Of a stretch of 64,000 bases of DNA, positions 3,366 to 22,436 are shown piece after piece (the first letter of the stretch is position 1; every line of letters begins with the position of its first letter). The notes below the pieces were generated by a model. That model worked only from the letters and a program-made list of their open reading frames with translations, searched no databases and had not been told where the DNA came from. Source of the stretch: Schaalia canis (lineage in GTDB: Bacteria > Actinomycetota > Actinomycetes > Actinomycetales > Actinomycetaceae); contig NZ_RQZF01000002.1 in NCBI RefSeq assembly GCF_003858455.1, positions 1 through 64,000 of the forward strand. The letters run 5' to 3'. The translations under genes and the position numbers were made by a program.

Positions 3366-4973
3366 TCACTTGGCTGTCGCTAGCAGAGCCTCTTCGGCAG
3401 CCTTGGTCCACAGGCCGTTATCGAGCTTGGCAGCAACCTCAGGCAGCTTCTCGCCCATCTCTGACAGCGGGGTCAGGCCCAGGTCGTGGAGCATGGGGAA
3501 GACCATGATCTTGCCGCCGGAGGTGCGGTTCATGACCGCGTTGATGGCATCGACGAAGCCAGCCATGCCGGTTACGGCGTACAGGGAGATGGTGGTGTCG
3601 ATGATGCCTTCTTCGATCTTACGCAAAACGGTGCGCATGTCGGAGACATCCGAACCGGAGGTGCCCAGAACGAAGATGCGACGCTCAATAATGCCCTGCA
3701 AGTCGAACTCACCGAAGGTGCCTGCGGGAATACCGGCGAAGGCGTTGACGATGGAGTCTTCTGCTGCCAGGTCAATGGCCTGCGACACCAGTGCGGGCAC
3801 GGGAACCATGCAGGACACGTGGGTGTAGCCGTATTCCAGGGGCGTTGTGGAGGTGTTGATGATCTCCAGAGGCACATTGCGGGCTTGGGCGACGGGGCCA
3901 ACCACGCTGCGCAGGCCTTCAAGACGCTCGTCAGACAGGTCTGTGCCAGCAACGGTGATGCCAGGAACGCCTGAGGTGACAGCGCGCATGGTGTGCATCT
4001 GGCCCATGGGCCCAGCCGCACCGATGATGGCGATACGGTCGTTTTCACGCAGATCGCCATTAGCGGGAATCCAGGCGTAGCCGTCACGAGGATCAGAGCC
4101 TGTGGTGCCGCAGAAGCGGATGAAGTCGTAGTGGACGCGACCGATATCCAGGCTCACCTTGCGTTCGATACGCTCCCCACCCAGGACCACGCAGAAGGTG
4201 CCGCGGGTGCCGAGCAGCAGGGAGAGGGCCTCGATGACCTCGGCTGAGGCTCCGAAGTAGACGATGTCATCAAACTCTTGGCCTTCAACGGTGGACACCT
4301 CGGCGGCGGAGATACGCACGACCTCGCCGGGGACATGCTCGGCGGTCAGCTCATCAACAGAGCCTTCACCAATAACGAGGAGGCGACCACCGTCAGCAAC
4401 GTGGTTGCGCTCTGCCCAGGCGTAGGAGCCTTCCACCGTCGCCCAGGGTTCGATCAGACCAACAGCGGCAGCTGAGGGAGCGTCGGAAACGTGGATAAGG
4501 AATTCTTCGCCGTCAGCGGGGTTCACAACGCAGCGTTCGTCGACAACAACGTATTCCTGAAGGGCTCCGTCGAAGTTGTAGCCGAAAGCGCCGTTGGACT
4601 TGGCGGTGCGCAGGTGCTTCCAGTCGGCCTGAACGAGCACGCGATCACCCACCTTGAAGTGGGTGACCTTGTCGCCAACTTCGATGACGCGGCAGACGGG
4701 TTCGTGGCCGGGAACGACGGGGGCTGAACCGGGCTTGTAGGAGGGGATTTCTGCCAGGGCATCCAGATCGATGCCGGCAATTACCTCAGACTTACGGGGG
4801 TGGTTGTCGAATGCGTGCAGTAGCTTGGTGTCGGAGAAGCAAATGCCGCAGGCTTCGACCTGAAGCATCATTTGGTGGGGGCCAACAGGATCGACAGACT
4901 TGTTGGGGTTGACGATCACCTCATCTGCGCCAACGATCTGGATCGCGTGCTGAGTGGTAGGGATCTCGCTCAT
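3366..4973 (-). CDS. Long zinc-type dehydrogenase (MDR family), 535 residues
   Basis: A medium-chain dehydrogenase with catalytic-zinc residues in ACGICFSDTK and PGHEPVCRVIEVGDKV, and a cofactor site in IAIIGAAGPMGQM. Family members are usually 340-400 residues. This one is 535, and the extra length looks like a second Rossmann-type segment (about 200-300) before the canonical one (about 305-500). Both segments end in a similar stretch, FCGTTGSDPRDG and VLGTSGSDVSDM. Probable substrate: a polyol or sugar phosphate, judged from the neighbouring short-chain dehydrogenase; not proven. AAGGAAAG precedes the ATG. It is the last gene of the operon, 55 bases after the short-chain dehydrogenase. A lactaldehyde or alcohol dehydrogenase role is an alternative. 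Confidence 0.75.
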   Translation of the reverse strand: MSEIPTTQHAIQIVGADEVIVNPNKSVDPVGPHQMMLQVEACGICFSDTKLLHAFDNHPRKSEVIAGIDLDALAEIPSYKPGSAPVVPGHEPVCRVIEVGDKVTHFKVGDRVLVQADWKHLRTAKSNGAFGYNFDGALQEYVVVDERCVVNPADGEEFLIHVSDAPSAAAVGLIEPWATVEGSYAWAERNHVADGGRLLVIGEGSVDELTAEHVPGEVVRISAAEVSTVEGQEFDDIVYFGASAEVIEALSLLLGTRGTFCVVLGGERIERKVSLDIGRVHYDFIRFCGTTGSDPRDGYAWIPANGDLRENDRIAIIGAAGPMGQMHTMRAVTSGVPGITVAGTDLSDERLEGLRSVVGPVAQARNVPLEIINTSTTPLEYGYTHVSCMVPVPALVSQAIDLAAEDSIVNAFAGIPAGTFGEFDLQGIIERRIFVLGTSGSDVSDMRTVLRKIEEGIIDTTISLYAVTGMAGFVDAINAVMNRTSGGKIMVFPMLHDLGLTPLSEMGEKLPEVAAKLDNGLWTKAAEEALLATAK

Positions 4974-5028
4974 GACTTCTTTCCTTCAGTAGGACGGGAT
5001 CTTGCCGCCGGGGATAGATCGTTGGGGG

Positions 5029-6045
5029 TTAGTTCATCATGACCTGGCCGCCCGTGACGGGAACAGCCTGGCCGGTTTCGTATGCCTGCTCGACGATGTA
5101 GTAGATCGCGCGCAGGACGTCGATGCCTGTTGCACCGCGGCGCATCGGCACCTTGGATTCGTAGAACTCCTTGACTTCAGCAACGGTTGTCGCACCGGGC
5201 ACCTTTCCAGATGCCAGGTATTGGACGAAGAGGCCCTTCTCCGGGTCGGACCACAGGGGGCCGTCGTAGAAGTTGCCGGGGCAGATGGCGTTGACCTTCA
5301 CACCGTGCTCGACCATTTCCAGGGCGAAGGACTGGACCAGGCCAATACCGCCAAACTTTGAGCCAGCGTAGGCGGCGTTCTTATTGGAGCCCGCCAGGCC
5401 GGACTTGGAGTTGATCTGGATAATGTCGGTCAGCCATGCGGGTGCGGTGAGGTGCTGGCGGGCCAGCAGGGCTCCCACATGCTTGGTGACAAGGAAGAAT
5501 GCCACGTAGTTGATGTCGGTGGAGAGCTTAAAGTCAGAGAGGTTCTGCTCCAGCACCGAGCCTGCACGCACAATGCCGGCATTGGACACGAGCAGGTCCA
5601 GGCCTCCGGTGACGCGGGCGATCTCATCAGCCATAGCAGCAACGGAATCTTCGTCGCCGACGTTGACGGTAATGGGATGGGTATTGGGGCCAAGCTCAGC
5701 ACACTTGGCTTTGGCGCCTTCGCCGTTCAGGTCCGCAATGAACACGAAGCAGCCCTGATCCACCAGGCCCTTAGCGATTTCAGCGCCAAAACCCTGGGCG
5801 CCGCCAGTCACGACGGCCACGCGGCCGGAGATTTCGCGCTCGCCACGTTCGGTGGCGACGACCTCGAAACGCTCCTCGCCGACGGAAACGACGACAGGCA
5901 GTTCGACCTCGCCCAGCGAGTAGCCGATAAGTTCTTCTTCAGTGACGGGAAGAGCCAGGGTGGCCTCAGCCGTGGTGGGGCGCACGATCACTGGACGTTC
6001 CAGTGCTGAGAGGAAGAGTCCTCTCACGAGAGGTGCGACGGTCAT
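5029..6045 (-). CDS. Short-chain dehydrogenase, sorbitol-6-phosphate dehydrogenase type
   Basis: A 338-residue SDR with the cofactor motif TGGAQGFG, the NAG motif (LVSNAGIV) and the catalytic Ser/Tyr/Lys set in INSKSG and YAGSKFGG. About 80 extra residues precede the Rossmann fold, which is unusual for classical SDRs of about 250 residues. The second ATG is chosen because GGAGG lies directly ahead of it. The predicted reaction is NAD(P)-linked oxidation of a sugar or polyol, possibly phosphorylated. Its place between a PHP-domain protein and a zinc-type dehydrogenase implies consecutive steps on one substrate. Confidence 0.8.
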   Translation of the reverse strand: MTVAPLVRGLFLSALERPVIVRPTTAEATLALPVTEEELIGYSLGEVELPVVVSVGEERFEVVATERGEREISGRVAVVTGGAQGFGAEIAKGLVDQGCFVFIADLNGEGAKAKCAELGPNTHPITVNVGDEDSVAAMADEIARVTGGLDLLVSNAGIVRAGSVLEQNLSDFKLSTDINYVAFFLVTKHVGALLARQHLTAPAWLTDIIQINSKSGLAGSNKNAAYAGSKFGGIGLVQSFALEMVEHGVKVNAICPGNFYDGPLWSDPEKGLFVQYLASGKVPGATTVAEVKEFYESKVPMRRGATGIDVLRAIYYIVEQAYETGQAVPVTGGQVMMN

Positions 6046-6108
6046 GTGTTCCTCCATAGAGTTTTACGAGGGTTAGGCCCCATCGTTGGGGAGTGAAAAA
6101 GTGGACAC

Positions 6109-7428
6109 TTATGCGCGACTTGCCGACTGCGCGAGCTCGCTGACATCCGCACCATCAGCAAAAGCGCGACCCAGGGGCGCGTATTCGGCAATGCGTTCGG
6201 CAAGGCGCTCGGGGGTGAGGCGTCCAGAGCCGAGGATGTGGAGCTCGGGGTCAACGGTGGACAGCGCCTCGTGCGCGACCATCGCCCAGGTGGCCTCGTT
6301 AAGATCAGCGAATTCAGGGCGACGCAGCTCCGGGCAGTTGAAGGACTGTCGCGGCTGGTTAATGTCAACGCCGGAGATCTCCAGCATGCCGTGGCGCAGG
6401 GCGAGCTCGTGGATACGTGCAAGCTGCTCAGGGGTGTTGCGCGGCGGCATGTAGGTGACAGCGCGGAAGCCTCGTTCTTCAAGGGCTTCGAAAAGCTCAT
6501 CAAGGAATTCATCCTCGAACTTTTCTGCCTTCTTGTCACCCGTGGGCGAGGCGGCCACGTCACCAAGGTAGGCGTAGGCGGCGATCGCGCCGATGGAGTC
6601 AGCGAAGGCGACGACCTCGGCGGCTGTGGGGAGTTCGTCGGTGGGCTGGATGTAGATGCGGTCGAGGTATTCGGACTTGAGGACGCCCAGCAGGTCGTAC
6701 ATGAGGTGCGGATTGTCCGCATCCCCCAGCGCATCAGCGAGGGCGGGTGGAATGGTGACGCCCATGCCGGTTAGTCCTTCGACGAGGGCGGCGCCGCGTC
6801 CAAAGCCTGCGATGAGGGCGTCAGCCATGGCCGCGAGGAGGTGACGCTCGGTAATGCCGCCACCGTTGGCGTACTGGGAAATGTCCACCATGTCCTTTTG
6901 TGGGTCGAAGGGCTCAAGGCCCAGGTCGACCAGGATTGCATTGGCGGCTTCAGCCATAGCCAGGGTGCGGCGCAGGCGAGCCTCACGCTTGGGGGCGAGC
7001 CACTGGGCGACTGTCTCGCGCGCCCAAGCGGGCACACCCTGCACGGTGAGGTAAGCAATGCCGTAGGAGTCGGGGTTGTTGAGCTTACGGCTGGCGAAGG
7101 GGCCGTCGTTACCTTCTTCGAAGAAGGCGCGGCATTCAAAGCCCGTCACTGAACCCATGCCGAGGATGCGGCAGGCTTGGGTCATTTCATCGGCGGCGGC
7201 GATGGAGTCGTGGTCGACGGAGCCAACAACACGTAGTCCCGCGCGGCGGCCTCCAAGGGCGGCGGCGGCGGGCGTGTACGGGCTGAAGGAGTAGCAGGTG
7301 TGAATGTGGTTGTTGGACTCGACCTCCCATGCGGGGAAGGTTTCAGTGGAGGCGAGCTCGCGCAGGGCGGCGAGGCGTTCCTCGGGGGTGACTGTCACAT
7401 CATTGGTGGCGTCATGAGTGGTGTGCAT
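6109..7428 (-). CDS. PHP-domain protein, putative metal-dependent hydrolase
   Basis: A 439-residue protein. The PHP signature is present: H41-x-H43 in NNHIHTCYS, D72-H73-D74 in GSVDHDS, and E98 in GFECR. The usual final D-x-H of the PHP site appears as VDINQ, so the last metal-binding histidine seems to be missing. PHP enzymes are mostly phosphoesterases. The middle part (about 120-300) is not a standard PHP segment and may give substrate specificity. GAGG precedes the ATG. It lies between the oxo-acid dehydrogenase genes and the two dehydrogenases, so it probably acts on an intermediate of the same route. The substrate is unknown. Confidence 0.7.
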   Translation of the reverse strand: MHTTHDATNDVTVTPEERLAALRELASTETFPAWEVESNNHIHTCYSFSPYTPAAAALGGRRAGLRVVGSVDHDSIAAADEMTQACRILGMGSVTGFECRAFFEEGNDGPFASRKLNNPDSYGIAYLTVQGVPAWARETVAQWLAPKREARLRRTLAMAEAANAILVDLGLEPFDPQKDMVDISQYANGGGITERHLLAAMADALIAGFGRGAALVEGLTGMGVTIPPALADALGDADNPHLMYDLLGVLKSEYLDRIYIQPTDELPTAAEVVAFADSIGAIAAYAYLGDVAASPTGDKKAEKFEDEFLDELFEALEERGFRAVTYMPPRNTPEQLARIHELALRHGMLEISGVDINQPRQSFNCPELRRPEFADLNEATWAMVAHEALSTVDPELHILGSGRLTPERLAERIAEYAPLGRAFADGADVSELAQSASRA

Positions 7429-7479
7429 GGGTTCCTCACATCAGCGGCGACGATAGGAAGGTTTTTGGTGTGAAGTGTG

Positions 7480-7524: not shown

Positions 7525-7576
7525 GCTTTCTCAGTGGCGCGGCGTGAGATGCCGTCTCCTGAGTGAAGCTGGGACC

Positions 7577-10027
7577 TCAGATGCCCAGACGGTTGCGACG
7601 GATGATTTCGCCTTCGGTCTGGTTCGAGGTGGGCACGTGGCCGGGGATCGGCACAACGCGCTCGTGAATGGTGTCGATGATCCACTCGGGCTGCGGGAAG
7701 AAGATCGATTCGAGCTCGGGGCCGGGGGTAATGCCGTTGCGCGAGCCGACGACGGCGACGGGGGCGTCAAGATCGTCGAAGGCAAGGGTCTGGACTGTTG
7801 AGGCCACGGTGTGGAGGAAGGATCCACGTTCGACAGCGTCGGAGGCCAGAACCAGGCGGCCGGTCTTCTTCACGGAAGCCAGGAGCTTCTCGTAGTTCAA
7901 AGGAGCCACGAAGCGCAGGTCAATGACCTCAGCGGACATGCCGTACTTTTCTTCGAGGATCTTTGCTGCTTCCATCGCGCGGTACAGGGTTGCACCGTAG
8001 GTGGCGATGGTGACGTCGGTGCCTTCGCGGCGCACGGCGGGCTCGCCTTCGGGCGTCTCGTAGTAGCCAGTGGGGACACCGTCCTTTTCGAACTCTTCGC
8101 CCTTGTCGTACAGGAGCTGGGATTCGAAGAAGACCACGGGGTCGGTGCCTCGCAGGGCCAGGTTGAGCATGCCCTTAGCGTCGGTTGGGGTGGCGGGGAA
8201 GAACACCTTCAGACCAGGGATGTGGGCGGTCAGTGCCGACCAGTCCTGGGAGTGCTGAGCGCCGTACTTGTTACCCACGGACACGCGCAGGACCAGGGGC
8301 ATCTTCAGTAGGCCAGCGGACATGGACTGCCACTTGGCCATCTGGTTGAATACCTCGTCACCGGAGCGGCCCAGGAAGTCACAGTACATGAGCTCGATAA
8401 CCGCGCGGCCGCCGGCCATGGCGTAGCCAACACCGGCGCCAACAATCGAGGCTTCCGCGATGGGCGAGTTGAAGAGGCGACGGTAGGGCAGGGCCTCGGT
8501 CAGGCCGCGGTAGACGGCGAAGGCGCCGCCCCAGTCGCGGTTTTCTTCACCCCATGCTGCCATCGTGGGATCGATGGAGAAGCGGTGGAGCATCGCTTCA
8601 AAGAGAGCGTCGCGGAACTGGAACATCTTCATCTTCGAGACGGGCTTACCGTTCTCGTCGAATGCGGTGCGGATCTTCTTTTCGAGGGCGGCCACGCGGG
8701 GGTTGCCTTCGAGGGTGATCTCAGGCTCGCCTTCCTCCATTGCCTCGGTGGGCGTGTTGGAGAACATGACGGTTTCGATGTAGCCGTCGGCGATACGGGG
8801 GCACTTATCTTCGTCAGTGGCCAGGCGCAAAACCTTGGTGAGCTTTTCGGTGAAGGCTGCGGTGTAGGCATCAATGTCGCTCTGGGTGGTGAGGCCATTG
8901 GCGATGAGGAGCTCGGAGTAGGACTTGATGCAGTCCACGTTCTGCCACAGCTCGACTTCGTCGGCATTGCGGTAGGAGGAGGCGTCCGAGGGCGAGTGGC
9001 CGGAGAAGCGGTAGGTGAGGGTGTCCATGAGGACGGGGCCCTTGCCTGCTTCGAGGATGGCCTTCTTGCGGGTGGTGGCGTCTGCAACGGCGAGGGGGTT
9101 GATGCCGTCGACGCGTTCGGCGTGCATAGCCTCCGGGTTGAGGCCTGCGCCGACGCGGGCGAGGACCTCGTAGCCCATGGTTTCACCGAAGGTCTGGCCA
9201 CCCATACCATAGAAGTTGTTGAAGAAGTTGAACAGGATGGGCGGGTAGCCGCCGTCCTCTTCACGCCACAGGGTGGCGAACTGGTCCATGGTGGCGAAGT
9301 TCATGGCTTCCCACACGGGGCCGCAGGCCATGGAGGCGTCACCAATATTGGAGATGACGATACCGGGCTTGCGGTTGATGCGCTTGAACAGTGCTGCACC
9401 GTTGGCGACGGGGGCCGAACCGCCAACGATGGCGTTGTTCGGGTAGGAGCCGAAGGGCAGGAAGAAGGTGTGCATGGAGCCGCCCAGGCCTCGGTTGAAG
9501 CCTGACTTGCGGGCGAAGATTTCAGCCAGGGCACCGAAGAGGATGAAGTTTTCGGTGAGGTCCTTGGTGTCGGTGTAGTCGATCTGCTCAGCGAAGGACA
9601 GGGTTTCTCCGTCAAGGAAGTCCTTCATGATCGTCTCAAGCTGGCTGTTGTCGATCTGACGCATTGCCGAGTAGCACTTGGCGAGGATTTCACCGTGGGA
9701 ACGGTGGGAGCCGAAGAGCTGATCGTCGGGGGTGAGAACGAAGGACTGGCCAACGTAGGCGGCTTCCTGGCCAATACCAAGGTGGGCGGGGCCAGCGTGG
9801 TTGTATTCGATACCTTCCCACGAGCCGGTCTTCTTAATGGAGTCCAGCATTGACTCGAAGGTGCGCACAACGATCATGTCGTGGAGCATGCGTACCATGC
9901 CGTCCTTGCCGTAGCGGGCAAGTTCGGTGTCGAGGTTGAAGGTGTAGGTGTTGAGGGGGATCTCCGGGATGGTGAGTTTGCCGGGAGCGCGCACCACCGA
10001 GGGATCAACGATAAGAGACTTAGTCAT
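7577..10027 (-). CDS. Fused E1 alpha-beta, TPP-dependent 2-oxo acid/acyloin dehydrogenase
   Basis: An 816-residue protein. The E1 alpha half (about 40-440) has the thiamine diphosphate motif starting GDA (229-231) and ending NN (270-271). The E1 beta half (about 480-810) begins [15 protein letters not shown] and has IGAGVG-type and [10 protein letters not shown] blocks. Most E1 proteins of this type are separate alpha and beta chains, so this is a natural fusion. The GDA-to-NN spacing is longer than the usual GDG(about 30)NN. The start at MTKSLIV is chosen because the upstream extension is low-quality sequence overlapping the E3 stop. With E2 and E3 from the same operon it would form a complete complex making an acyl-CoA. 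Pyruvate, branched-chain or acetoin-type substrate cannot be decided from sequence alone. Confidence 0.85.
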
Positions 10028-10073
10028 TGTCGTGTTTCTTTTCTGCCTACTTTGGCGGTTTGGAGGAGAGGAA

Positions 10074-11435
10074 TCAGAAAGCCCAGAGAGCTTCGCGGAT
10101 GACTTCGGACACCGTCGGGTGCGGGAATACAAGCTGGCGAGCGTCCTCAATGGTCAGCTCGGTTTCCAGCATGGCCTGTGCGCCCCAGATCATTTCGGAG
10201 GCGTAGGCACCCAGGACGTGAACGCCCAGGATCTGGCGGGTGTGCTTGTCAGCGATGACCTTGGCAAAGCCCGGTGCGCGGAAGCCGTTTTCTGCGATGA
10301 AACGGCCCGACATGAGGGCAGGTGCCTTGGCGGTGATGATCTCGTGTCCAGCCTCAATAGCGGAGGCTTCGGTCATGCCAACGCCGGCCATTTCGGGGGC
10401 CGTGTACACCACCCACGGGACGGTGTTCCAGCGCATGACTTCACCGCGGCGGTAGGCCTCGGGGTCAAGGATATTGGCGGCGGCAACCTCGCCCATACGG
10501 TAGGCGGAGTGTGCCAGCGGGGAGCGACCGTTGCAGTCACCCACTGCCCACACGTTGGGCAGGTTCGTGCGCATACGATCGTCGACAACGATACCGCGAG
10601 GAGTCATCTCCAGGCCGGTGTTTTCTGCGCCCCAGCCCTGCAGTGCGGGGCGGCGGCCAACGGCCATGAGGATGACGTCGGCGTCAACGGTCTGGGCAAC
10701 CCCATCCTTGGAGTAGGTGATAGTGCCATCGGAGATGGACTCGACCTTGCATCCCATTTCGAAGGTGACGTTTTTGAGGGCCTTGCGCAGCGCGGAAGCA
10801 ACCTCGGCATCAGCAAAGGGAGTGATCTCGGCGGCCATTTCAATGACGGTGACCGTCGTGCCCAGCGCAGCGTAGAGTGCTGCGAACTCAACGCCGATCA
10901 CGCCGCCGCCGACAACAGTCAGACGGGAGGGAACGGTTTCGAGGGAGAGGATGCCCGTGGAGTCAACAACCTTGGGGTTGTCGGCTGCGCCCGGGATTGG
11001 GGGCATGACGGGCACGGAGCCGGTGGCGAGGATGACGTGTTCGGCGGTGTAGGTGGTGCCCTCAACCGTCACACGTCCGGGGCCTTCAAAGATGCCGCGG
11101 GCGTTGAGGACGGTGACGCCAGCCTTCTTTTCTGCCATGCCCACACCGGCGACGAGGCCCTTAACGACCTCGGCTTTCCAGGCCTGCATGCGCTCCCAAC
11201 TGTAGGAGACGCCCTCGGCATGAACGCCAAACTGGTCGCCTTCAAGAGCGTGGGTGTAGGTCTTGACGGAGTTCAGCAGGGTCTTGGTGGGGATGCAGCC
11301 CACGTTGAGGCAGGTGCCGCCAAGGGCGACTTCTTCAACGAGGAGGACCTTCTTGCCTGCGTGGCCGAGGCGTTCAGCAGCGAGGTAGCCGCCGGGGCCA
11401 CCACCGAGGACGATAACGTCGAATTCAGTAGTCAT
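10074..11435 (-). CDS. lpdA: Dihydrolipoyl dehydrogenase (E3)
   Basis: A 453-residue flavoprotein disulfide reductase. It has the FAD motif GGGPGGY, the redox pair C42 and C47 in [13 protein letters not shown], a second nucleotide site [12 protein letters not shown], and the C-terminal catalytic H439/E444 in HPTVSE. It reoxidises lipoyl groups on E2 with NAD+. The start at MTTEFDV has GATGAGAG just upstream; an ATG nine bases earlier overlaps the E2 stop as ATGA and is the alternative. The gene is translationally coupled to E2 and lies 46 bases before E1. Confidence 0.93.
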
Positions 11436-11440
11436 ATCTC

Positions 11441-13598: not shown

Positions 13599-13638
13599 CG
13601 TTTATCTTTCTCTTGTGGCCATAATAATCGATAAAACG
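13599..13638. promoter_or_regulatory. Candidate DeoR operator
   Basis: An imperfect inverted repeat, CGTTTATC (13599-13606) and GATAAAACG (13630-13638), lies 41-80 bases upstream of the DeoR start in an AT-rich patch that probably holds the promoter. No clear -35/-10 pair could be fixed. The rest of 13559-13838 shows no gene. Confidence 0.4.
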
Positions 13639-13730
13639 AAAGACAGCAAGGTCACATTCCACTGAGAAGATACCTCTGACGACAGCCTCTTGAGTAGGAC
13701 TTTCCCTTGATAAGTCGGCAGAATATGCGG

Positions 13731-13838: not shown

Positions 13839-14270
13839 TCATTCACCCGGCTGACGCACTCCCACTGTCAGCAGCAGATTCGCGTACAAGCGCTGATCGC
13901 CGGTGGCAATGATAATGCCGACATCCCCGCTGCGGGCAGCATCATAGAATGCCCAGCGCTTAATCTCGCCGAACTCGACATCAGGCAAAGCAGCGCGGTA
14001 ATCGTCGTGGGCATCAATGACGATGGGGTCATTGTCATCCTCAGGCACCATAATTTCGGCCTTCTCAATCGGAATGGTTCGCTTGAGAACGTCAAGCACC
14101 TGATTGACATCCAGCAGGCCGGGGGCAAGGTTGAGTGAAACAAGCTCACACAGTTCGTTGACGCCAGTGGTGTGGGGGTAGTTGCCGTCAGCAATAAGGA
14201 TCTTCGAACCGTGGCCTGCCGCAGCCAGAGCACGCAGAAGTTGGGGATGGGTCATGGGTCCGTACAGCAT
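13839..14270 (-). CDS. fucU: RbsD/FucU-family mutarotase (L-fucose mutarotase)
   Basis: A 143-residue protein of the RbsD/FucU family, with the conserved N-terminal block AAAGHGSKILIADGNYP and a C-terminal LYANLLLTVG. These enzymes interconvert sugar anomers so the isomerase gets the right form. Assignment to fucose, not ribose, comes from the neighbouring fucose isomerase. AAAGGA precedes the ATG, and the gene starts 12 bases after the LacI stop. It is the last gene of the fucose operon. Confidence 0.85.
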   Translation of the reverse strand: MLYGPMTHPQLLRALAAAGHGSKILIADGNYPHTTGVNELCELVSLNLAPGLLDVNQVLDVLKRTIPIEKAEIMVPEDDNDPIVIDAHDDYRAALPDVEFGEIKRWAFYDAARSGDVGIIIATGDQRLYANLLLTVGVRQPGE

Positions 14271-14282
14271 TGTCGGGTCCTT

Positions 14283-15278
14283 TCATACAAGCGAGCTGTT
14301 CCGGATGACCAGCTCAGGTTCAATCAGAACATCTGTGGGAGCTTCACCCTCAAGCAGGGAAGCCATTTGGTTGATAGCCGCCCGTCCCACCAGGTCAAAG
14401 CGCTGACGAATCGTGGTCAGGGGAGGTAGATAACATTCTGCCCCATCGTTGTCGTCAAAGCCGACGATCTTCACCTCGTGGGGAATGTCCACCCCGCGCT
14501 CATGAAGAGCACGCATCGCACCAAGAGCAAGCTGATCGTTAGCCGCCACGAAACCTTCAGGGAGAGTCGCCATAGCTTTCACCGTGCGATAGCCGTCCTC
14601 TGCGTTCCACGACGGATTCGTCACGATGTCGTAGTTGACGCCTGCGGCTTCGCAAGCTGTCACAAAACCTTCGCGACGTCGGTCGGCATCGCTCCAACTA
14701 TCCGGGCCAGCCAGATGGGTGAGGCTACGCACTCCTGCCTGGCACAGGTGCCGGGTTGCCACCTCGGTACCGTGGGCATTATCCACTGACACAGTCGATA
14801 CTCCCGGCAGGTTCGTCTCATTCGCTAGAAGAAGAACCGTCGGCGTATGCGTAGCCATCTCCATCGCCAACTCAACTGTTGGCTGCTGGCCGCCCAGAAT
14901 AATGACACCATCCACTTGGAAAGGAGGGGCACCATTGTCGATTCTTCCCGCACCGAGATAAGCGTTCGTCACACTCACCGTGTAATCTGCCCCACCGGCC
15001 TCGTCCATCACAGCCAACAGAGTCTGGCCGTGACCGTGGAACATTGGCGCAGCCAGAACCACATGGAGCACGCCGGTTTTATTTCCCGCCAGGGCACGGG
15101 CAGCGTAGTTGGGACGATAGCCAACTTCGTCAATGATCTCCGCAATCCTGCGTCGCGTAGAATCAGCAACTTCGCCATCGCCCCGCACCACGCGGGACAC
15201 AGTGTTAGAGGACACGCCCGCTAGCCGCGCAACGTCGGCTAGCGAGACGCGCCTTCGCCGTTCACGGGTTGTGGACAC
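14283..15278 (-). CDS. LacI-family repressor of the fucose operon
   Basis: A 331-residue LacI/GalR regulator. The helix-turn-helix is VSLADVARLAGVSSNTVSRV (11-30), followed by the hinge-helix region and a periplasmic-binding-like sensor domain containing FVAANDQLALGAMRAL and VKIVGFDDND. The GTG start at 15278 gives the normal family length and overlaps the kinase gene by 17 bases; the longer upstream frame is only a shadow of the kinase gene. It probably binds the operator at 22489-22506 at the head of the operon. Its effector is presumably L-fucose or a derivative. Confidence 0.88.
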   Translation of the reverse strand: MSTTRERRRRVSLADVARLAGVSSNTVSRVVRGDGEVADSTRRRIAEIIDEVGYRPNYAARALAGNKTGVLHVVLAAPMFHGHGQTLLAVMDEAGGADYTVSVTNAYLGAGRIDNGAPPFQVDGVIILGGQQPTVELAMEMATHTPTVLLLANETNLPGVSTVSVDNAHGTEVATRHLCQAGVRSLTHLAGPDSWSDADRRREGFVTACEAAGVNYDIVTNPSWNAEDGYRTVKAMATLPEGFVAANDQLALGAMRALHERGVDIPHEVKIVGFDDNDGAECYLPPLTTIRQRFDLVGRAAINQMASLLEGEAPTDVLIEPELVIRNSSLV

Positions 15279-16662
15279 GAGTCTGAGCCGTCTCAGCGAT
15301 AACAGCGGGACGATCTGCTGGGTCGAGGTGTCCCATGATCTCAAGCTGCGCCAGCAAGCCACCGAGGATCGAGGCCTCGATAGGCCCGGCGACCACGCGC
15401 ACATTCGCCAGGCGAGCGGTCAGATCCGACAGCAGGTGGTTGCGTGCACCGCCGCCGACGAGGTTAAGCTGCTCGGGGCGCTCCCCCACAATCGCCGCCA
15501 AGTCATCAATGGCGCGCGCATAGCGGCGAGCGAAGGACTCAATAACAAGGCGGACGTATTCCGGCATGGAGGTCGGCGCTGCGACACCTTGCTCAGCCAT
15601 TGCCTCGTCAATTTTTTCGACCATGCCGCCAGGTTCGGCAAAACGCGGATCGTCGGGATCGAAAACGGCCTCGCACGGTGCACACTCGCGGGCCTGAGCG
15701 ACAAGCTCATCAGTATCAGTGGGGGTTCCCTCACGTTCCCACTGGCGCTGGAGTTCCTGCAGAATCCACATGCCGGTGATATTAAACAGAGGGCGCACGC
15801 CACCATCAGTGCGGCCTTCATTTGTCAGGCCGATGGCGTAGGCTTCGGGGCTGATCAACGGCTCATCTTCCATGGCGCCCAAAACCGACCAGGAGCCAGC
15901 CGACAGGAAGAATGCCTTCTTCACGCTGTCTTCAATAGGCAGGCCGTGGACAGCACAGGCGGTGTCATGGGCTCCTGCGCGGACAACAGTGAGATGTTCA
16001 AGGCCAGGCACAGTGCACGGGCCAACGACAGTGAGGTCCTTGTTGAGTTCCCCGGCCCACTCCTTCTTCAGGCCAAGGCGGGTGAAGACCTCGTCAGACC
16101 ATTCACGCGCGCCCGGGCCACACAGGCCCGAGGTGGAAGCAATCGTGCGGGACCAGCCCTTCACGCCGGTGAGTTTCCAAGCGAAATAGTCAGGAAGGAA
16201 CAGGAAGGTTGCGATCTCGTCAACCTGTTCGGGGTGTTCCTGGGTGAGGGCAAAGAGTTGATTAGCGGAGTTAATGGTTGCCGGAGCGTTTCCGGTCAGT
16301 TCAAAGAACTCCTCATCACCAATGCGGGCGCGGAAGGCATCGTGGGTGCGGACGGTGCGCTCGTCACGGTAGGCAAGCGACTTACCAACAATTTCGTCAT
16401 TGCTGTTCAGGGGAACGAAGTCAACGCCCCAGGTGTCAACAGAGATAGAGACGGCGTCGGGGAACTGTTCCGCAGCCTTTTTCAGGCCAGCGACAAGTTC
16501 TGTCCACATGGTGTCCAGGTCCCACACCAGGTCGTCACCGTCGCGGCGCGCCTCATGGTAAAAGCGGTGAACCTTCGTGATCTCAAGATGTCCATCAACA
16601 AGAGTGCCGGCAAGAACGCGACCGGACGAGGAGCCAAGATCAACGGCAAGTGCGGTAGTCAT
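15262..16662 (-). CDS. RhaB-like FGGY sugar kinase, probable L-fuculokinase
   Basis: A 466-residue FGGY kinase starting MTTALAVDLGSSSGRV. Blocks seen are SISVDTWGVDF, AYRDERT, the substrate/nucleotide block SAGSWSVLG, and NLVGGGARNHLL. These resemble rhamnulokinase (RhaB) more than E. coli FucK, but the gene sits directly after fucose isomerase, so L-fuculose to L-fuculose-1-phosphate is the likely reaction. AGGAAGG supports the chosen ATG; the upstream in-frame extension runs through hairpin sequence. It overlaps the LacI gene. L-rhamnulose could be an additional substrate. Confidence 0.82.
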   Translation of the reverse strand: MTTALAVDLGSSSGRVLAGTLVDGHLEITKVHRFYHEARRDGDDLVWDLDTMWTELVAGLKKAAEQFPDAVSISVDTWGVDFVPLNSNDEIVGKSLAYRDERTVRTHDAFRARIGDEEFFELTGNAPATINSANQLFALTQEHPEQVDEIATFLFLPDYFAWKLTGVKGWSRTIASTSGLCGPGAREWSDEVFTRLGLKKEWAGELNKDLTVVGPCTVPGLEHLTVVRAGAHDTACAVHGLPIEDSVKKAFFLSAGSWSVLGAMEDEPLISPEAYAIGLTNEGRTDGGVRPLFNITGMWILQELQRQWEREGTPTDTDELVAQARECAPCEAVFDPDDPRFAEPGGMVEKIDEAMAEQGVAAPTSMPEYVRLVIESFARRYARAIDDLAAIVGERPEQLNLVGGGARNHLLSDLTARLANVRVVAGPIEASILGGLLAQLEIMGHLDPADRPAVIAETAQTRVHNP

Positions 16663-16875: not shown

Positions 16876-18639
16876 TCAGCGGTACATGGGACCGTAGGTC
16901 TGGCAGGCGCGGTAGTCGGCGCTTTCCAGATCTGCGGTGCCAAAGAGCGACCAGGACTTCGGGCGGAAGATGCGATCCTCGGAGACATTGTGCATGTTCA
17001 CGGGGATGCGCAGCATCGAAGCCAGGGTGATGAGCTGAGCGCCGATGTGACCGTAGGAGATCGCACCGTGGTTGGCACCCCAGTTGTTCATCACGTCGTA
17101 GACCGAAGCGAAGGCGCCTTCACCGGTGAGGTTCGGGACGAACCAGGTGGTGGGCCATGCGCGGTCGGTGCGGTTTTCGATGGTGGTGGCTACTTCGTCG
17201 GGCAGCTCCACGGTCCAGCCTTCAGCGATCTGCAGGACGGGGCCAAGGCCAGCAACGAGGTTGATGCGGCTCATGGTCACGGGCATTTCGCCGGAGGTGC
17301 GGAAGTGGGTGGAGAAGCCGCCGCCGGGGAAGTACTCGTAGGTGGCAGGGTGGAAGGTGGTGGCATCCAGTGCTGCCTGGCAGTCTTCCTCGGTCATCTC
17401 CCACCAGGGCTTGATGACGTTCTCGCCGTCACGTACGGACTTGCCAGCGCCGTCCATCGAGGTCGAGCCGGAGTTGCGCAGGTCAAGCAGACCAACGGCA
17501 GCGCGGCCTTCGGGCTTCCAGCCGGTGACGCGTTCGATGGATTCGGGGCTCCAGTAGGTGCGCACGTCGGAGAAGATCTGCGGCGTGCCGGTCAGGAGGT
17601 GGCCGAAGAGCATGGAGGCGCCGTTGAGGGAGTCATTCTCGGTGGCGAGGATGTAGGGCTGGCGGATGCCCGTCCAGTCGAAGTTGGTGTTGAGGATCGT
17701 TTCGAGGACGTCACCGTTGGGCATGTGGTCGGTCCACTGGCGCTGTCCCTGGAAGCCACCGGCGAGGGCACCGTGACCGAGGGCTTCTTCACCCCAGCCA
17801 ATTTCAGCGAGCTTGGGGTTACCGCGCATGAGGTCACGACCAATAATGGTCATCTTGGCGCAGATCTCCCACCACTCGTCATGGAGTTCGGGGTGCTGGT
17901 TGAAGTCGGGGTTGAAGTCTTCGCCCTGGGTGAGGTTTTCACGCATCCACTTGAGGGCGGCTTCGTATTCTTCTTCGTCGTAGATCTTTTCATCCATGCG
18001 GCGGATGAACTCGGTCATGTCGATGTATTCGTTGCGCATGCCCAGGTAGGGGCCGAAGAATTCGTCCTTGACGACCGAGCCGGCAATACCCATGGAGACT
18101 GAGCCCATGGACAGGTAGGACTTGCCCTTCATCTGGGCGACAGCCAGACCGGCCTTGGCGTAATCAAGGAGTCGGCCGCGCACGTCTGCGGGGATGGATT
18201 CGTCGTCGGAATCCTGAACTTCCTTGCCGTAGATGCCAAAGGCTGGGATACCTAGCTGTGCGTGTCCGGCGAGGGCGGCTGCGAGGTAGACGGCGCCGGG
18301 ACGTTCAGTGCCATTGAAGCCCCAGATGGCGTGGGGCATGGTGGGATCCATGTCCACGGTTTCGGTGCCGTAGCACCAGCAGGGGGTGACTGAGAGGGTC
18401 AGGCCGACACCATTGCGGGCGAACTTCTCGGCGCATGCTTGCGCTTCAGCGACGCCGCCGATGGTGGTGTCTGCGATGACGACCTCAACGGGGGTGCCGT
18501 CGACGTAACGGAGGTTCTCGGTGAAGAGTGCCGCGACGCGCTTGGCCATGTTCATGGTCTGATCTTCGAGGCTTTCACGGACTCCGCGGCGACGACCGTC
18601 GATGGTGGGGCGGATACCAATGCGGGGATGGTCTGTCAT
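16876..18639 (-). CDS. fucI: L-fucose isomerase
   Basis: A 587-residue protein, close to the 591 residues of E. coli FucI. It starts [20 protein letters not shown], typical of the family. The manganese-binding catalytic residues are visible: E334 in [11 protein letters not shown]358 in [11 protein letters not shown] and H531 in SYGHIGAQL. It converts L-fucose to L-fuculose (it may also accept D-arabinose) in the cytoplasm. Its neighbours are the sugar-binding protein 183 bases upstream and the kinase downstream. This gene gives the best support for naming the operon. Confidence 0.96.
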
Positions 18640-18822: not shown

Positions 18823-19830
18823 TCACTCGTAGAGGTTGGGCTTGATCTCGTCGTCTTCGATGTTGGCCTTGTCGTACCAGTAGAAGCCGGAGTCAATGAT
18901 CTTCTCGAGCTTTTCACCCTTGATGGCCTTGACGGCGGCCTCAACGGTCATGCGTCCCATCTTCTTGGGGGCCTGGGTGATGGCGCCAGCCTGCTTGCCT
19001 TCCTTGATGGCGGCAATCTGGGTCTTGCCGGAGTCGAAGCCGACAACCTTCAGCTCAGCCTTGCCCGCTTCGGTGGCACCCTGGATGGCGCCGGTAGCGG
19101 CAGCTTCGTTGGAGCCGTAGAGGCCAACGAGTTCGGGGTTAGCCTGGATGAGAGCCTTGGCGGTGTCTGCAGCCTTGCCGACCTCACCTGCGTACTGGGG
19201 ATCGAGGAGGGTCACGTCAGGAGCGTTGGTCTTGATGTATTCCTGGAAGCCTTCGCAACGCTGCTTGCCGGTCTGGGAGGTCTGGTCGTGGCAGATGAGA
19301 CCAACGGTGCCCTTGCCGCCGATGAGTTCGACCATGTGCTTTGCAGCTTCAGCAGCAGCAGCCTTGTTGTCGGTCTGAACGGTGGTCAGAGGAATGTCGG
19401 ACTCAACGCCGGAGTCGAAGGCGATAACGGGGATGCCAGCGGCCTTGATCTCTTCAAGGACGGGGGCTGCAGCCTTGGAGTCAAGAGCGGCGAAGCCGAT
19501 AGCCTTGGGGCCGGAGGCGAGGGCGGTCTTGAGCTGGTCGAGCTGCTCGGTGACCTTGGTTTCATCCTGAGGACCGACGAACTCAACGGTGTAGCCGAGT
19601 TCCTTGCCAGCCTCTTGAGCGCCTTCATTCACTGCCTGCCAGAAGCGGTGCTGGAAGCCCTTGGACACCAGGTAAATGGTGCCGCCTTCTTCCGTTGCGG
19701 GAGCCTCGGTTGCAGGGGCTTCAGATGCAGGTGCATCTGCTGCGGGGGCGGTGGAGCCGGAGCAGGCGGCCAGGCCGAGGGCCATCACGCATGCGGCGGC
19801 AACTGTGGTCATACGTCCGATGGAGCGCAT
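18823..19830 (-). CDS. Sugar-binding lipoprotein of ABC transporter
   Basis: A 335-residue substrate-binding protein of the ribose/galactose (LacI-like) type. The lipoprotein signal peptide ends in LAAC with lipidated C23. A low-complexity Ala/Pro/Glu/Thr linker (about 27-48) leads to the two-lobed binding domain, which contains YLVSKGFQHRFWQAVNEGA, FDSGVESD and VVGFDSGKTQ. It captures the sugar outside the membrane and hands it to the permease. Substrate inferred from fucI context: L-fucose or a fucosyl sugar. It follows the permease gene by 90 bases. Confidence 0.9.
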   Translation of the reverse strand: MRSIGRMTTVAAACVMALGLAACSGSTAPAADAPASEAPATEAPATEEGGTIYLVSKGFQHRFWQAVNEGAQEAGKELGYTVEFVGPQDETKVTEQLDQLKTALASGPKAIGFAALDSKAAAPVLEEIKAAGIPVIAFDSGVESDIPLTTVQTDNKAAAAEAAKHMVELIGGKGTVGLICHDQTSQTGKQRCEGFQEYIKTNAPDVTLLDPQYAGEVGKAADTAKALIQANPELVGLYGSNEAAATGAIQGATEAGKAELKVVGFDSGKTQIAAIKEGKQAGAITQAPKKMGRMTVEAAVKAIKGEKLEKIIDSGFYWYDKANIEDDEIKPNLYE

Positions 19831-19920: not shown

Positions 19921-20922
19921 TCACACTGCGGCAGCGCGAGCGCGGCGGATGTTGTCAACGAAGACGGCCAGGAGGACGACGATACCGGTGACGACGAGCT
20001 GCCATTCGGCGGCGACACCCATCATGGTCAGGCCCTTCTTGAGGGTTTCCATGAGGAGGGCACCGATGAGGGTACCGAAGATCGAGGCGCGGCCACCGGC
20101 CAGGGAGGTGCCACCGATCACGACTGCGGCGATGACGTTGAGCTCGAAGCCGACGCCTTCAGCGGGCTGAACGAAGCCGAAACGTGCCGAGTAGAGGATG
20201 GCGCCGAAAGCCATGAAGATGCCCGCGACCATGTAAATGATGATCTTCCACTTGCGCACATCCACACCGGAGAGGCGGGTTGCTTCTTCGTTGGAGCCGA
20301 TGGCCAGAGCGTAGCGTCCCAGGACGGTCTTGTTCATCAGGAAGGCTGCGATGATGGTGGCGATGATGAAGAAGAGTGCTGCGTTGGACAGGCCGGGAAT
20401 GATATTGCCGGTGGAGAGGAAGATGTAGCCGGGGTTAGCAATCGAGATGGTTGCGGTGCCGGAGATGATGAGGGCCAGACCGCGGGCGACCATCATCATG
20501 GCCAGGGTGGCAATGAAGGGTGGAAGTCCCAGGATTGAGACATTCACACCGTTAATAACACCCATGAGGGCACCCAAAGCGATGGTCAGGACGAGGCCGG
20601 CAGCTAGGGGCAGGTTAAGCCAGTCGGCGGAGAGGAAGACACCAGCACCGACGGCAACGAGGGTCATACCTGTACCGACCGAGAGGTCAATGCCGGAGGT
20701 GGCGATAATAAATGTTGCGCCCAGGGCCATCACGCCCATGTAGGCTGCCTGCAGCAGAATATCGGTGAAGATGCTGAACTGCGCGAACTTCGGTGCTGCG
20801 AACATGAAGAAGATGTAGACGACGATCAACGCCAGCATGACGAAGACAAGCTGCATCTGGGACTTAATCGACGCGAGAACGCGGTTCGGCGTCTTGGCAT
20901 CGAGGGCTTTAGCGTTGCTCAC
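19921..20922 (-). CDS. Ribose-type sugar ABC transporter permease
   Basis: A 333-residue integral membrane protein of the RbsC family, with about 8-10 hydrophobic segments. The family signatures are ATFIIATSGIDLSVGTGM, the EAA-like loop VSILGLPPFIATLAMMM, and VIGGTSLAGGRASIFGTLIGALL near the C terminus. It probably forms a homodimer in the membrane. Its start overlaps the end of the ATPase gene by 4 bases (GTGA-type coupling). Confidence 0.93.
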   Translation of the reverse strand: MSNAKALDAKTPNRVLASIKSQMQLVFVMLALIVVYIFFMFAAPKFAQFSIFTDILLQAAYMGVMALGATFIIATSGIDLSVGTGMTLVAVGAGVFLSADWLNLPLAAGLVLTIALGALMGVINGVNVSILGLPPFIATLAMMMVARGLALIISGTATISIANPGYIFLSTGNIIPGLSNAALFFIIATIIAAFLMNKTVLGRYALAIGSNEEATRLSGVDVRKWKIIIYMVAGIFMAFGAILYSARFGFVQPAEGVGFELNVIAAVVIGGTSLAGGRASIFGTLIGALLMETLKKGLTMMGVAAEWQLVVTGIVVLLAVFVDNIRRARAAAV

Positions 20923-22436
20923 GCGACTACTCCATTCGCTTCTTCCTGACCGACGGTGGCCAGTTCCATAATGTTTTCTTGGGTGGCTTCCTCATTGTCG
21001 AGGGTGCCGATGATACGACCGTGTGCCATCACCGCGATACGGTGGGACAGGCGCAAAACCTCGGGCAGTTCAGAGGAGATCATGATGATTGCCTTGCCCT
21101 GGGCGGCGAGGGCTTCGAGAAGCTGGTAGATCTCTTCCTTTGCACCAACGTCGATACCGCGGGTTGGTTCGTCGAAGATCAGCACATCAGAGTCTCGGAT
21201 CAGCCACTTGGCGATAACAACCTTCTGCTGGTTGCCACCGGAGAGGTTGCGCAGAAGCTGGTTGATCGAGGGGGTACGGGTGCGCAGCTTGTCGGTGTAT
21301 TCCTGGGTGACAGAACCCACCTTGGCATCTTTGATGACGCCCAGCGAGGTGAAGGCTTCCATGGTGGACAAGATGGTGTTGAACTTGATGTCTTGTTCAA
21401 GCAGGAGGCCGAATCGCTTGCGGTCTTCGGAAAGGTAACCGATACCTGCCTTGACTGCATCGCGGCAGCTGTGCACGTTCACGGTCTTGCCATTGACGGC
21501 AATCTCGCCTGTCACGCGGGGGTCGGCACCAAAGACGCAGCGTGCGACCTCAGTGCGGCCTGCGCCCATAAGGCCTGCGAAGCCAAGGATTTCACCCTTG
21601 CGCACCTCAAAGGAAACATCCTTGAGAAGCTTGGTGGTGGACAGACCCTTAACGGAGAGAACAACGTCATCTGAAACGCGAGGGTTCGTGGGGCGAGCAT
21701 CTGCTGCAACCTCGCGGCCCACCATCATCGAGATGATTTCACGCATCTCAACGTCCTTGGTGGTGACGGTGCCAACATACTGGCCGTCACGCAGAACGGA
21801 GACGCGGTCGGTGATCTCTTCGATTTCCGGCATGCGGTGCGAGATGTAGATCAGGCCCGTCGTGGGGGAAACGAAGTCGCGGATCAGTCCGAAGAGAGTT
21901 TCAGTTTCCTGGGTGGTGAGTGCCGCGGTGGGCTCATCCATGACGAGGATGCGTGCGTCGTAGGACAGTGCGCGAGCAATTTCCACCATCTGCAGGCGGG
22001 CAACAGTCAGATCACGGCAGTACGCCGATGGGTCGATGTCCATACCCAGGCGGTCAAAGAGTTCACGAGCCTGCTTTTCAAGCTGTGCGTCCTTGATGTA
22101 GCCCTTATTGGTCGAGCCTGGGCGACCAATGTAGAGGTTCTGGGCAACAGTAAGGTCAGGAATGATGTTGAGTTCCTGGTGGATGATGCTCAGGCCTAGG
22201 TCGCGAGCATGGTTGGGATCGCGAACCGCGACCTTCTGCCCTTCGAGCCAAATTTCGCCGCCTGGATCGGCGGTGTAAATACCCGTGAGGATCTTCATCA
22301 GTGTGGACTTACCAGCACCATTTTCGCCACACAGGCCCAAAACCTCACCAGCGCGCAGGTCAATGTTGACGTTGGACAACGCCTTCACGCCGGGGAACGT
22401 CTTGGAGATCCCCTTTAATTCGAGTAAGTTCGTCAC
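20919..22436 (-). CDS. Double-domain sugar ABC transporter ATPase
   Basis: A 505-residue RbsA-type protein with two fused ATPase domains. The N-terminal domain has a canonical Walker A, GENGAGKSTLMK, and MDEPTAALT. The C-terminal domain has the degenerate Walker A GLMGAGRTEV, the signature LSGGNQQKVVIAKWL and FDEPTRGIDVGAK. This asymmetry is normal for the family. It is the first gene of the fucose operon, preceded by a promoter and a LacI operator, and overlaps the permease gene. Confidence 0.95.
   Translation of the reverse strand: MTNLLELKGISKTFPGVKALSNVNIDLRAGEVLGLCGENGAGKSTLMKILTGIYTADPGGEIWLEGQKVAVRDPNHARDLGLSIIHQELNIIPDLTVAQNLYIGRPGSTNKGYIKDAQLEKQARELFDRLGMDIDPSAYCRDLTVARLQMVEIARALSYDARILVMDEPTAALTTQETETLFGLIRDFVSPTTGLIYISHRMPEIEEITDRVSVLRDGQYVGTVTTKDVEMREIISMMVGREVAADARPTNPRVSDDVVLSVKGLSTTKLLKDVSFEVRKGEILGFAGLMGAGRTEVARCVFGADPRVTGEIAVNGKTVNVHSCRDAVKAGIGYLSEDRKRFGLLLEQDIKFNTILSTMEAFTSLGVIKDAKVGSVTQEYTDKLRTRTPSINQLLRNLSGGNQQKVVIAKWLIRDSDVLIFDEPTRGIDVGAKEEIYQLLEALAAQGKAIIMISSELPEVLRLSHRIAVMAHGRIIGTLDNEEATQENIMELATVGQEEANGVVA

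Follow-up and report, generated by a model that had tools for sequence, protein, structure and literature searches.

Gene content of the two operons

We analysed a stretch of 64,000 nucleotides from Schaalia canis (Actinomycetaceae), positions 1 to 64,000 of contig NZ_RQZF01000002.1 in assembly GCF_003858455.1 (hereafter, the window); the genome is 2.58 Mb long and rated 99.88% complete. Our subject is a pair of adjoining operons at 3366 to 22436, one for the uptake and first steps of L-fucose breakdown and one, here called the module, encoding a regulator, a thiamine-lipoate complex, a protein of PHP fold and two dehydrogenases. All genes of both operons lie on the minus strand and are transcribed from 22436 towards 3366. 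The upper operon starts with a sugar ATP-binding cassette (ABC) transporter made of an ATPase (20919..22436, PF00005 in two stretches), a permease (19921..20922, PF02653) and a sugar-binding protein (18823..19830, PF13407). These are followed by the L-fucose isomerase FucI (16876..18639), which scored above the cut-offs of NF008220 (1029 bits, cut-off 775) and TIGR01089 (976 bits); a RhaB-like FGGY kinase, presumed to be L-fuculokinase (15262..16662; 344 bits to the rhamnulokinase model TIGR02627, below its cut-off of 528); a LacI-family regulator (14283..15404, PF00356 and PF13377); and a FucU/RbsD mutarotase (13839..14270, PF05025). Going by its FucI, this half is a fucose operon, and the Pfam and NCBIfam matches agree with an earlier interpretation made from the letters alone (the sequence-only reading), which had placed an upper fucose pathway here.

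After about 280 bases the module follows: a DeoR-family regulator (12806..13558, PF00455 and PF08220, with an inferred ATG at 13558), the lipoyl acyltransferase E2 (11441..12796; PF00364, PF02817 and PF00198), the dihydrolipoyl dehydrogenase E3 (10074..11444; 465 bits to TIGR01350, above cut-off), a thiamine enzyme with fused alpha and beta parts, E1 (7577..10027; PF00676, PF02779 and PF02780), the variant PHP-fold protein (6109..7428), a short-chain dehydrogenase/reductase (SDR, 5029..6045) with a 70-residue N-terminal extension, and a 535-residue medium-chain dehydrogenase/reductase (MDR, 3366..4973, PF08240). The true starts of E1, DeoR, the kinase, LacI and the SDR likely lie inside the mechanical open reading frames (ORFs); we placed those of E1 and of the kinase, by inference, at residues 42 and 43 of their frames. 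The sequence-only reading had the same second operon, and its genes stand; its label "PHP-domain" found no matching Pfam or NCBIfam model, and the kinship had to be established by other means (see below).

No aldolase follows the fucose genes, as had been claimed: none of the 20 ORFs at 652-25851 matched an aldolase in Pfam. A scan of ten of these ORFs with NCBIfam gave models of bifunctional rhamnulose-1-phosphate aldolase/dehydrogenases for the SDR, which matched it in their SDR half only.

Conservation and association with FucI

The module is very probably a real, fucose-linked and aldolase-free unit conserved across phyla, judging from its synteny and co-occurrence in other genomes. Among 200 genomes of the Actinomycetaceae, 27 had both the PHP protein and FucI, none had PHP only, 22 had FucI only and 151 had neither. 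The PHP gene was full length in 26 of the 27 (own genome included) and fragmentary in one (G196), which was counted as positive; a FucI match below the family cut-off (G046) was not counted, and two broken ones (G176, G185) were counted as FucI-positive without PHP. The co-occurrence of fucI and the module that the sequence-only reading had proposed to look for in relatives is seen, with PHP as the marker, in 27/27 PHP-positive family genomes. Within the genus itself, nine genomes lacked FucI, and all nine lacked a full PHP gene.

For a comparison of gene order we fetched 20 relatives, out of 25 other genomes of the family in which PHP matched at full length. FucI, the kinase, LacI, FucU, DeoR, E2, E3, E1 and PHP were present in all 20, and the run from FucI to PHP was kept; one relative (L039) had about 4.5 kb between FucU and DeoR. 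The SDR was found in 19, the stretch of the twentieth (L048) ending before it. An orthologous MDR was present in 17 and a different, SorE-like MDR in two (L047 and L051), L048 not being covered. The PHP protein of one relative (G163) was 95% identical to that of the window.

In a wider search, the best 80 of 168 PHP relatives came from Schaalia, Actinomyces, Propionibacteriaceae (Tessaracoccus, Arachnia) and Spirochaetes. Of these 80 loci, 77 had the SDR, and 43 were at least 20 kb long; 31 of the 43 held E1, E2, E3, the SDR and either the MDR or a SorE-like protein. Eight of the other 12 (Tessaracoccus, Arachnia and related metagenome-assembled genomes) lacked only the MDR, and four (L092, L107, L108 and L124) had no E1 in the locus. 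The MDR was found, at 68-78% identity, in 12/12 genomes searched for it, those eight included. The order of genes varied: Tessaracoccus (L078) had a single run ABC-permease-binding protein-FucI-kinase-LacI-FucU-MDR-DeoR-PHP-SDR, with DeoR-E2-E3-E1 further on, and a distant locus (L241) had DeoR-SDR-PHP-SorE-E2-E3-E1, one more gene and then FucI. The module thus recurs in Propionibacteriaceae, Spirochaetes and low-GC Actinomycetota. In a hand-chosen sample of 22 of the 80 loci, FucI was present in all 21 module-bearing genomes searched (Actinomycetes and Spirochaetes; one, G205, with FucI in two pieces) as against 3/14 control genomes.

A second sample came from the order of Rectinema, which we take to be Treponematales. 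Its 146 genomes comprised 39 with PHP and FucI, 7 with PHP only, 11 with FucI only and 89 with neither, PHP-positive genomes being those with a match of at least 250 bits (the best match in every other genome was at most 37 bits). Of the 39 genomes with both, 23 had FucI and PHP on different contigs; in the others the two shared a contig, no more than 25 kb apart in 11 and farther apart in 5. Fisher's exact test, which ignores relatedness, gave p = 2.5e-20 for the family and 2.0e-18 for the Rectinema order. A chance neighbourhood of the two operons was rejected on the synteny, the differing gene orders and the co-occurrence with FucI across phyla.

The module and FucI-linked class II aldolases

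The own genome has one class II aldolase (PF00596), which is AraD-like: it scored 377 bits to NF005123 (cut-off 251) and 68 bits to the fucA model TIGR01086 (cut-off 400). We then compared 39 FucI-positive family genomes, 20 of them PHP-negative (the 22 mentioned above without the two broken FucI matches) and 19 taken from the 27 PHP-positive ones; the own genome was treated separately. In 19 of the 20 module-free genomes a class II aldolase lay 0.75-3.3 kb from FucI (start to start), and in the exception (G095) it was on another contig. None of the 19 module-bearing genomes had one within 15 kb of FucI, one of them (G005) having one at 15.0 kb. Three module-bearing genomes (G042, G177 and G198) had no class II aldolase at all, one of the three being only 70% complete. 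At a large distance from FucI, several module-bearing relatives had class II aldolases with weak scores, encoded by frames of about 380-400 residues; the own genome had none of these.

Among the Spirochaete-order genomes with FucI and without PHP, a short aldolase was present in 4 of 11 FucI loci (two strong matches, two weak), several of these loci being short, so the exclusion rule is less clean there. A home-made aldolase profile matched 3/80 module loci, with a strong match in L071, from the same genome as L051, and weak ones in L092 and L107. It missed a long aldolase of L241 that Pfam found, and its negatives are therefore valid for the short type only.

A FucA acting from elsewhere in the genome was rejected for class II aldolases, AraD being the only one; aldolases of other folds were not searched. 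This explanation, one of two simpler alternatives named in the sequence-only reading, accordingly fares badly. The core of that reading is a lower fucose pathway that does without FucA and in which the thiamine complex yields acetyl-CoA and a shorter sugar. It has good support from co-occurrence and synteny, and from the way in which the module and FucI-linked aldolases exclude each other.

The locus of L241 (2295-12567) showed a further feature: its SDR, with part of the N-terminal extension, and the adjoining 370-residue aldolase matched different parts of the models for bifunctional aldolase/SDR proteins (RhaD-ADH), as if the module SDR derived from a split bifunctional protein.

The thiamine-lipoate complex

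E1, the lipoyl E2 and the FAD-containing E3 are encoded together, as in complexes of the acetoin dehydrogenase type, and all 39 PHP loci of at least 20 kb with E1 also held E2 and E3. E2 and E3 were typical by domain content; with the acetoin E2 model, E2 reached only 58 bits, against a cut-off of 307. Aligned to the E1 of pyruvate dehydrogenase (PDH), the alpha part of the fused E1 keeps HLxxGQEA, GGSMH, the NN-YGMG stretch and GHSxSD, and the beta part keeps the HS motif; about 40 extra residues lie between the first two of these motifs. The fused E1 fell below the cut-off of every listed NCBIfam model, PDH equivalogs included. A separate AceE elsewhere in the genome scored 1331 bits, above cut-off, and the other three thiamine-pyrimidine-domain matches of the genome were on other contigs. 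Because of this separate AceE and of its own low scores, the fused E1 does not appear to be the cell's pyruvate dehydrogenase; a PDH acting on pyruvate was considered and judged unlikely on these grounds, and the second simple alternative of the sequence-only reading, that the complex just handles pyruvate, likewise fares badly.

Relatives of the fused E1 with 53-58% identity were present in 10 other genomes of a 396-genome sample of the phylum. Two of these carried the whole module (L241, with FucI, and L243), and in two others (L240 and L242) transporter genes accompanied E2-E3-E1, the stretch examined containing no PHP. L245 had a DeoR gene, its contig ending right after E1, and three remaining stretches were too short to judge. 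In L246 (7377-14697, GC 0.72, same phylum) E2, the fused E1 and transporter genes lay beside FucU and an MR_MLE gene. L244 had an E1 55% identical to that of the window and no E2 or E3 within 19.9 kb; there (1141-11743) E1 was near an FGGY kinase, a creatininase-like protein, two TIM-like isomerases, and SIS, Rpe-like epimerase, UPF0047 and DeoR proteins, and perhaps has a transketolase-like use.

Three alphaproteobacterial plasmids, out of 732 records with some match, carried E1 together with a lipoyl protein, an alpha/beta hydrolase and sugar transporters or kinases; in the Pleomorphomonas record the lipoyl protein and the hydrolase are annotated AceF and AcoC. The PHP protein had no match in the plasmids. 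On Rhizobium johnstonii plasmid pRL8 (L268, 5109-17655), the fused E1, lipoyl protein and alpha/beta hydrolase were accompanied by a kinase, a sugar-phosphate isomerase/epimerase, RbsD/FucU and a sugar ABC transporter, which looks like an uncharacterised sugar pathway. From these relatives in other sugar operons, E1 looks like a sugar-operon enzyme and not one for fucose only.

The two dehydrogenases

SorE is the L-sorbose-1-phosphate reductase; in sorbose breakdown it and an SDR partner shift the ketone from one end of the chain to the other, and in Klebsiella the SDR and SorE genes stood within one sorbose gene run. In the module, the SorE-positive Spirochaete loci and two loci of low-GC Actinomycetota (L241 and L243), as well as L047 and L051, had a SorE-like protein in the place of the MDR; its length was 420-441 residues in those cases in which the ORF was read. 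The Klebsiella protein annotated SorE was 48% identical to the L051 version and 51% identical to that of Rectinema (L116). The window MDR matched this SorE-like family by profile (E 4e-21) and had a similar C-terminal tail, GLWxKEAE. Its best, though weak, relative in NCBIfam was the scyllo-inosose dehydrogenase IolM (38 bits; 82 bits for the Rectinema SorE-like protein; cut-off 450). An AlphaFold model of the MDR had a predicted local distance difference test score (pLDDT) of 42 and was dropped. The E. coli gene yggP, whose product comes up again below, lay (L272, 6001-7278) beside a mannitol-type phosphotransferase system (PTS) and a fructose-bisphosphatase gene.

The SDR was nearest to sorbitol-6-phosphate dehydrogenases (209-244 bits, with 209 for NF009050; structure 5o3z, E 4e-44), and it scored 140-170 bits to the SDR half of the bifunctional rhamnulose-1-phosphate aldolase/dehydrogenases. 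A SorE-like protein in the place of the MDR, together with such an SDR, suggests a shift of the ketone along the chain. The sequence-only reading had the two enzymes oxidise the sugar phosphate to an acyloin or diketone; the families found here point to a redox-neutral ketone shift and not to a diketone.

The variant PHP protein

The kinship of the PHP-like protein was seen with phmmer (3e0f, E 3.5e-8) and also with hhalign. Its AlphaFold model (pLDDT 83) had a PHP fold, nearest to 3o0f/3e0f, RNase AM and 2yb1 (Foldseek E 5e-11 to 3e-9), and the five PDB matches with E < 0.001 were annotated as metal-dependent phosphoesterase, amidohydrolase 2yb1 or RNase AM. The nine metal-ligand positions of the trinuclear PHP centre were taken from an excerpt of PMC3666897 and compared over 92 distinct sequences (108 rows, some genomes occurring twice). 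Five ligands, H41, H43, H73, E98 and D355, were kept in 92/92. Position 3 was F48 (90/92, Y in two), position 7 was Y287 (92/92 with hhalign, shifting to about P295 in the HMMER alignment), position 9 was N357 (90/92), and position 6 was A125 in the HMMER alignment (A, I, V or L in 92/92) and F111 with hhalign. Either way no conserved histidine was present, the commonest reaching 15/92 in columns 99-195 and 3/92 in columns 280-330. New invariant residues included D298 and K299.

With four of nine ligands (positions 3, 6, 7 and 9) replaced, an ordinary phosphatase was judged unlikely, and with it the phosphate hydrolysis that the sequence-only reading had named as one of two possible reactions of this protein. 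Because of its constant company with the SDR, our guess is that it is perhaps a changed enzyme, an isomerase or epimerase.

Upstream motifs of the two operons

A putative LacI-type operator, the palindrome CGTTARCGYTAACG, lies at 22491..22504, upstream of the transporter-fucI operon; it was the only match in the window with at most one mismatch (0.01 expected). Among the regions upstream of the ABC gene that were at least 150 bases long, 13/14 (own included) had this palindrome, and L051 had TGTTAGCGCTAACA instead; four more regions were too short or unavailable. A putative DeoR operator half-site, CTTTCGTTT, is located at 13634..13642 on the minus strand, upstream of deoR. The 8-mer AAACGAAA, on either strand, was present in 16 of 17 regions upstream of deoR, while the commonest 8-mer in 50 shuffled sets reached at most 5. 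The repeated motif, TTTCGTTT, differs from the LacI-type palindrome; one copy of it is no rarer than chance in the window (0.72 expected). No LacI-type site was found in the same 17 regions. The different motifs suggest that the two halves answer to two regulators. DeoR-type regulators often sense sugar phosphates.

A proposed pathway and its rivals

The mechanism that we consider best supported, with a probability of about one half, combines a ketone shift with the cleavage of an acyloin. The FGGY kinase would convert L-fuculose, the product of FucI, to L-fuculose-1-phosphate, and the SorE-like MDR would reduce the ketone at C2 to give L-fucitol-1-phosphate, which is the same as 1-deoxy-D-galactitol-6-phosphate. 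The SDR would then oxidise the hydroxyl next to the methyl group, giving 1-deoxy-D-tagatose-6-phosphate, an acyloin like acetoin. E1 with thiamine diphosphate would split the acetyl group from the rest, E2 would pass it to CoA and E3 would make NADH, the products being acetyl-CoA and D-threose-4-phosphate. The variant PHP protein might, as an isomerase or epimerase, link the product to central metabolism, either at C4 before the cleavage (D-erythrose-4-phosphate would then be released) or on the tetrose phosphate. Such a route would lose none of the six carbons and would produce no lactaldehyde or 1,2-propanediol. LacI would control uptake and the upper half, and DeoR, probably sensing a sugar phosphate, the lower half. 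Acyloins are the substrate type of acetoin dehydrogenase, and a 1-deoxyketose is an acyloin. When the stereochemistry was worked out, the C2-C3 configuration at the site of the SDR was the same as in glucitol. According to an excerpt of PMC2962223, L-fucitol is 1-deoxy-D-galactitol and is said to be oxidisable enzymatically to 1-deoxy-D-tagatose.

Several observations weigh against this pathway or its tie to fucose. FucI was not found in 7/46 PHP-positive Spirochaete-order genomes, and, judged by FucI, the expectation of the sequence-only reading that the module goes with fucose genes held for all 27 family genomes and only in part for that order; three of the seven appear to be metagenome-assembled (8823, 20201 and 4352 bases), and missing contigs may explain the absence. 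The co-occurrence counts were not corrected for phylogeny. In L051 a class II aldolase, 15 kb from FucI, lies convergent to the last gene of the module, and L241 has its 370-residue aldolase directly after E1, resembling the first half of the bifunctional rhamnulose-1-phosphate aldolase/SDR. In BLAST alignments the window MDR reaches only 23-27% identity to SorE/YggP (23-26% to SorE itself). The Rectinema SorE-like protein shares 56% identity with E. coli YggP, a protein annotated only as zinc-binding dehydrogenase, and is nearer to it than to SorE. The SDR remains below the cut-off of the sorbitol-6-phosphate dehydrogenase model (209 bits to NF009050 versus 307), and its identity to the SDR among the Klebsiella sor genes is only 26%. 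Some E1 relatives lack PHP, SDR and MDR in the stretches examined. We know of no standard use for D-threose-4-phosphate, the product of the straight route. Finally, the PHP protein could be non-catalytic, as the PHP domain of E. coli Pol III is thought to be in the excerpt of PMC3666897.

Other explanations account for part of the data. The variant PHP protein may be an unrecognised L-fuculose-1-phosphate aldolase producing dihydroxyacetone phosphate and L-lactaldehyde, the SDR and MDR oxidising lactaldehyde and the complex turning a 2-oxo compound into acetyl-CoA. Mutual exclusion with FucI-linked class II aldolases would follow from this too, the protein keeps part of a metal site and has the invariant K299, and the SDR does match the SDR half of the rhamnulose-1-phosphate aldolase/dehydrogenases; however, SorE-type reductases act on a ketose-1-phosphate and not on lactaldehyde, going by what is known of the family, the SDR matches sorbitol-6-phosphate dehydrogenase better, and another complex acting on pyruvate would be redundant beside the AceE PDH, all of which makes this reading unlikely. 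We give a similarly small chance to the scheme of the sequence-only reading, in which SDR and MDR form a diketone, a phosphate or C-C bond is hydrolysed by PHP and acetyl-CoA comes from the complex: both the window MDR and the SorE-like protein of Rectinema bear a distant likeness to IolM, which is in its favour, but the lost metal ligands of PHP do not suit a hydrolase, SorE is named and known as a reductase, and acyloin cleavage needs no diketone.

It is very unlikely, in our view, that the FucA step is carried out by an aldolase elsewhere (AraD or one of another fold), the second operon being a mere neighbour that serves another sugar or pyruvate. Other sugar operons do contain E1 relatives, the operators of the two operons here seem to differ, and AraD and FucA are homologous; against this stand the co-occurrence with FucI across phyla and in different gene orders, the restriction of FucI-linked class II aldolases to family members without the module, and, in a nearly complete genome, AraD as sole class II aldolase next to a separate AceE. 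Equally remote seems a variant that follows the same route to the acyloin, with E1 releasing another product or acting in the manner of a transketolase and E2/E3 only partly used: the L244 E1, with no E2 or E3 found around it and with TIM-like, SIS and Rpe-like proteins nearby, would fit it, but E2 and E3 accompany E1 in every one of the 39 longer PHP loci that have E1.

Comparison of the ketone-shift route with known systems brings out what would be new. With the classical FucI-FucK-FucA-FucO/AldA pathway it shares FucI, FucU and a kinase, which are expected to give L-fuculose-1-phosphate; module-bearing genomes, however, are without the FucI-linked class II aldolase of their module-free relatives and have the oxidative module instead. 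The fucolactone (fcl) pathway likewise leads to central metabolites (lactate and pyruvate, according to an excerpt of PMC5583593) with no lactaldehyde; it runs via fucolactone and the proposed route via fuculose-1-phosphate, and no enolase-superfamily (MR_MLE) fuconate dehydratase was named among the 20 proteins at 652-25851, the rest of the genome not having been searched. The L-sorbose operon, with SorE and an SDR glucitol-6-phosphate dehydrogenase, has a similar MDR and SDR pair that would move a ketone along a hexulose phosphate, and its SorE is the one to which the proteins of two modules are 48-51% identical; in contrast, the module has a 6-deoxy substrate, an ABC transporter and not a PTS, a thiamine complex downstream and, in the window, a divergent MDR. 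Acetoin dehydrogenase (Aco) and PDH complexes have E1-E2-E3 and the proposed product acetyl-CoA in common with the module, whose E1 differs in its fused alpha and beta parts, its extra residues, scores far below the PDH cut-offs, its link to FucI and a proposed 1-deoxyketose phosphate substrate. The PHP phosphoesterases (3e0f, 2yb1 and RNase AM) share the fold and five of nine metal ligands with the module protein, which is about 150 residues longer, has no ligand at the other four positions and has the new invariants.

Two fucose routes are described in the excerpt of PMC5583593. We tentatively propose, at somewhat short of even odds, that the module is a third bacterial one, in which the ketone would move from C2 to C5, thiamine-lipoate cleavage would follow, a PHP isomerase/epimerase would feed the pentose phosphate pathway, and the fused E1 would establish a wider class, that of sugar-acyloin dehydrogenases, present in sugar operons of Rhizobium, Agrobacterium and Actinomycetota. 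No paper describing the module or the pathway was found among part of the matches in the open PMC subset, judged by titles and the starts of abstracts. The module is a concrete candidate for Actinobacteria. If the proposal is true, fucose carbons would end in acetyl-CoA and a sugar phosphate, and no 1,2-propanediol would be released for the other microbes that, in the literature excerpts at hand, feed on it. It would also suggest functions for the fused E1 family, annotated only "alpha-ketoacid dehydrogenase subunit alpha/beta", for the 535-residue MDR and for a PHP-fold family without a Pfam or NCBIfam match.

Neighbouring genes

Two gene pairs flank the operons. Directly upstream of the fucose operon, at 22745-25851, are two tandem L,D-transpeptidases (YkuD with PG_binding_4). 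On the other side, at 652-2794, a pyridine-nucleotide-disulphide reductase with a C-terminal rhodanese domain is divergent from a small CsoR/FrmR-type repressor (PF02583), possibly forming a persulfide-response pair.

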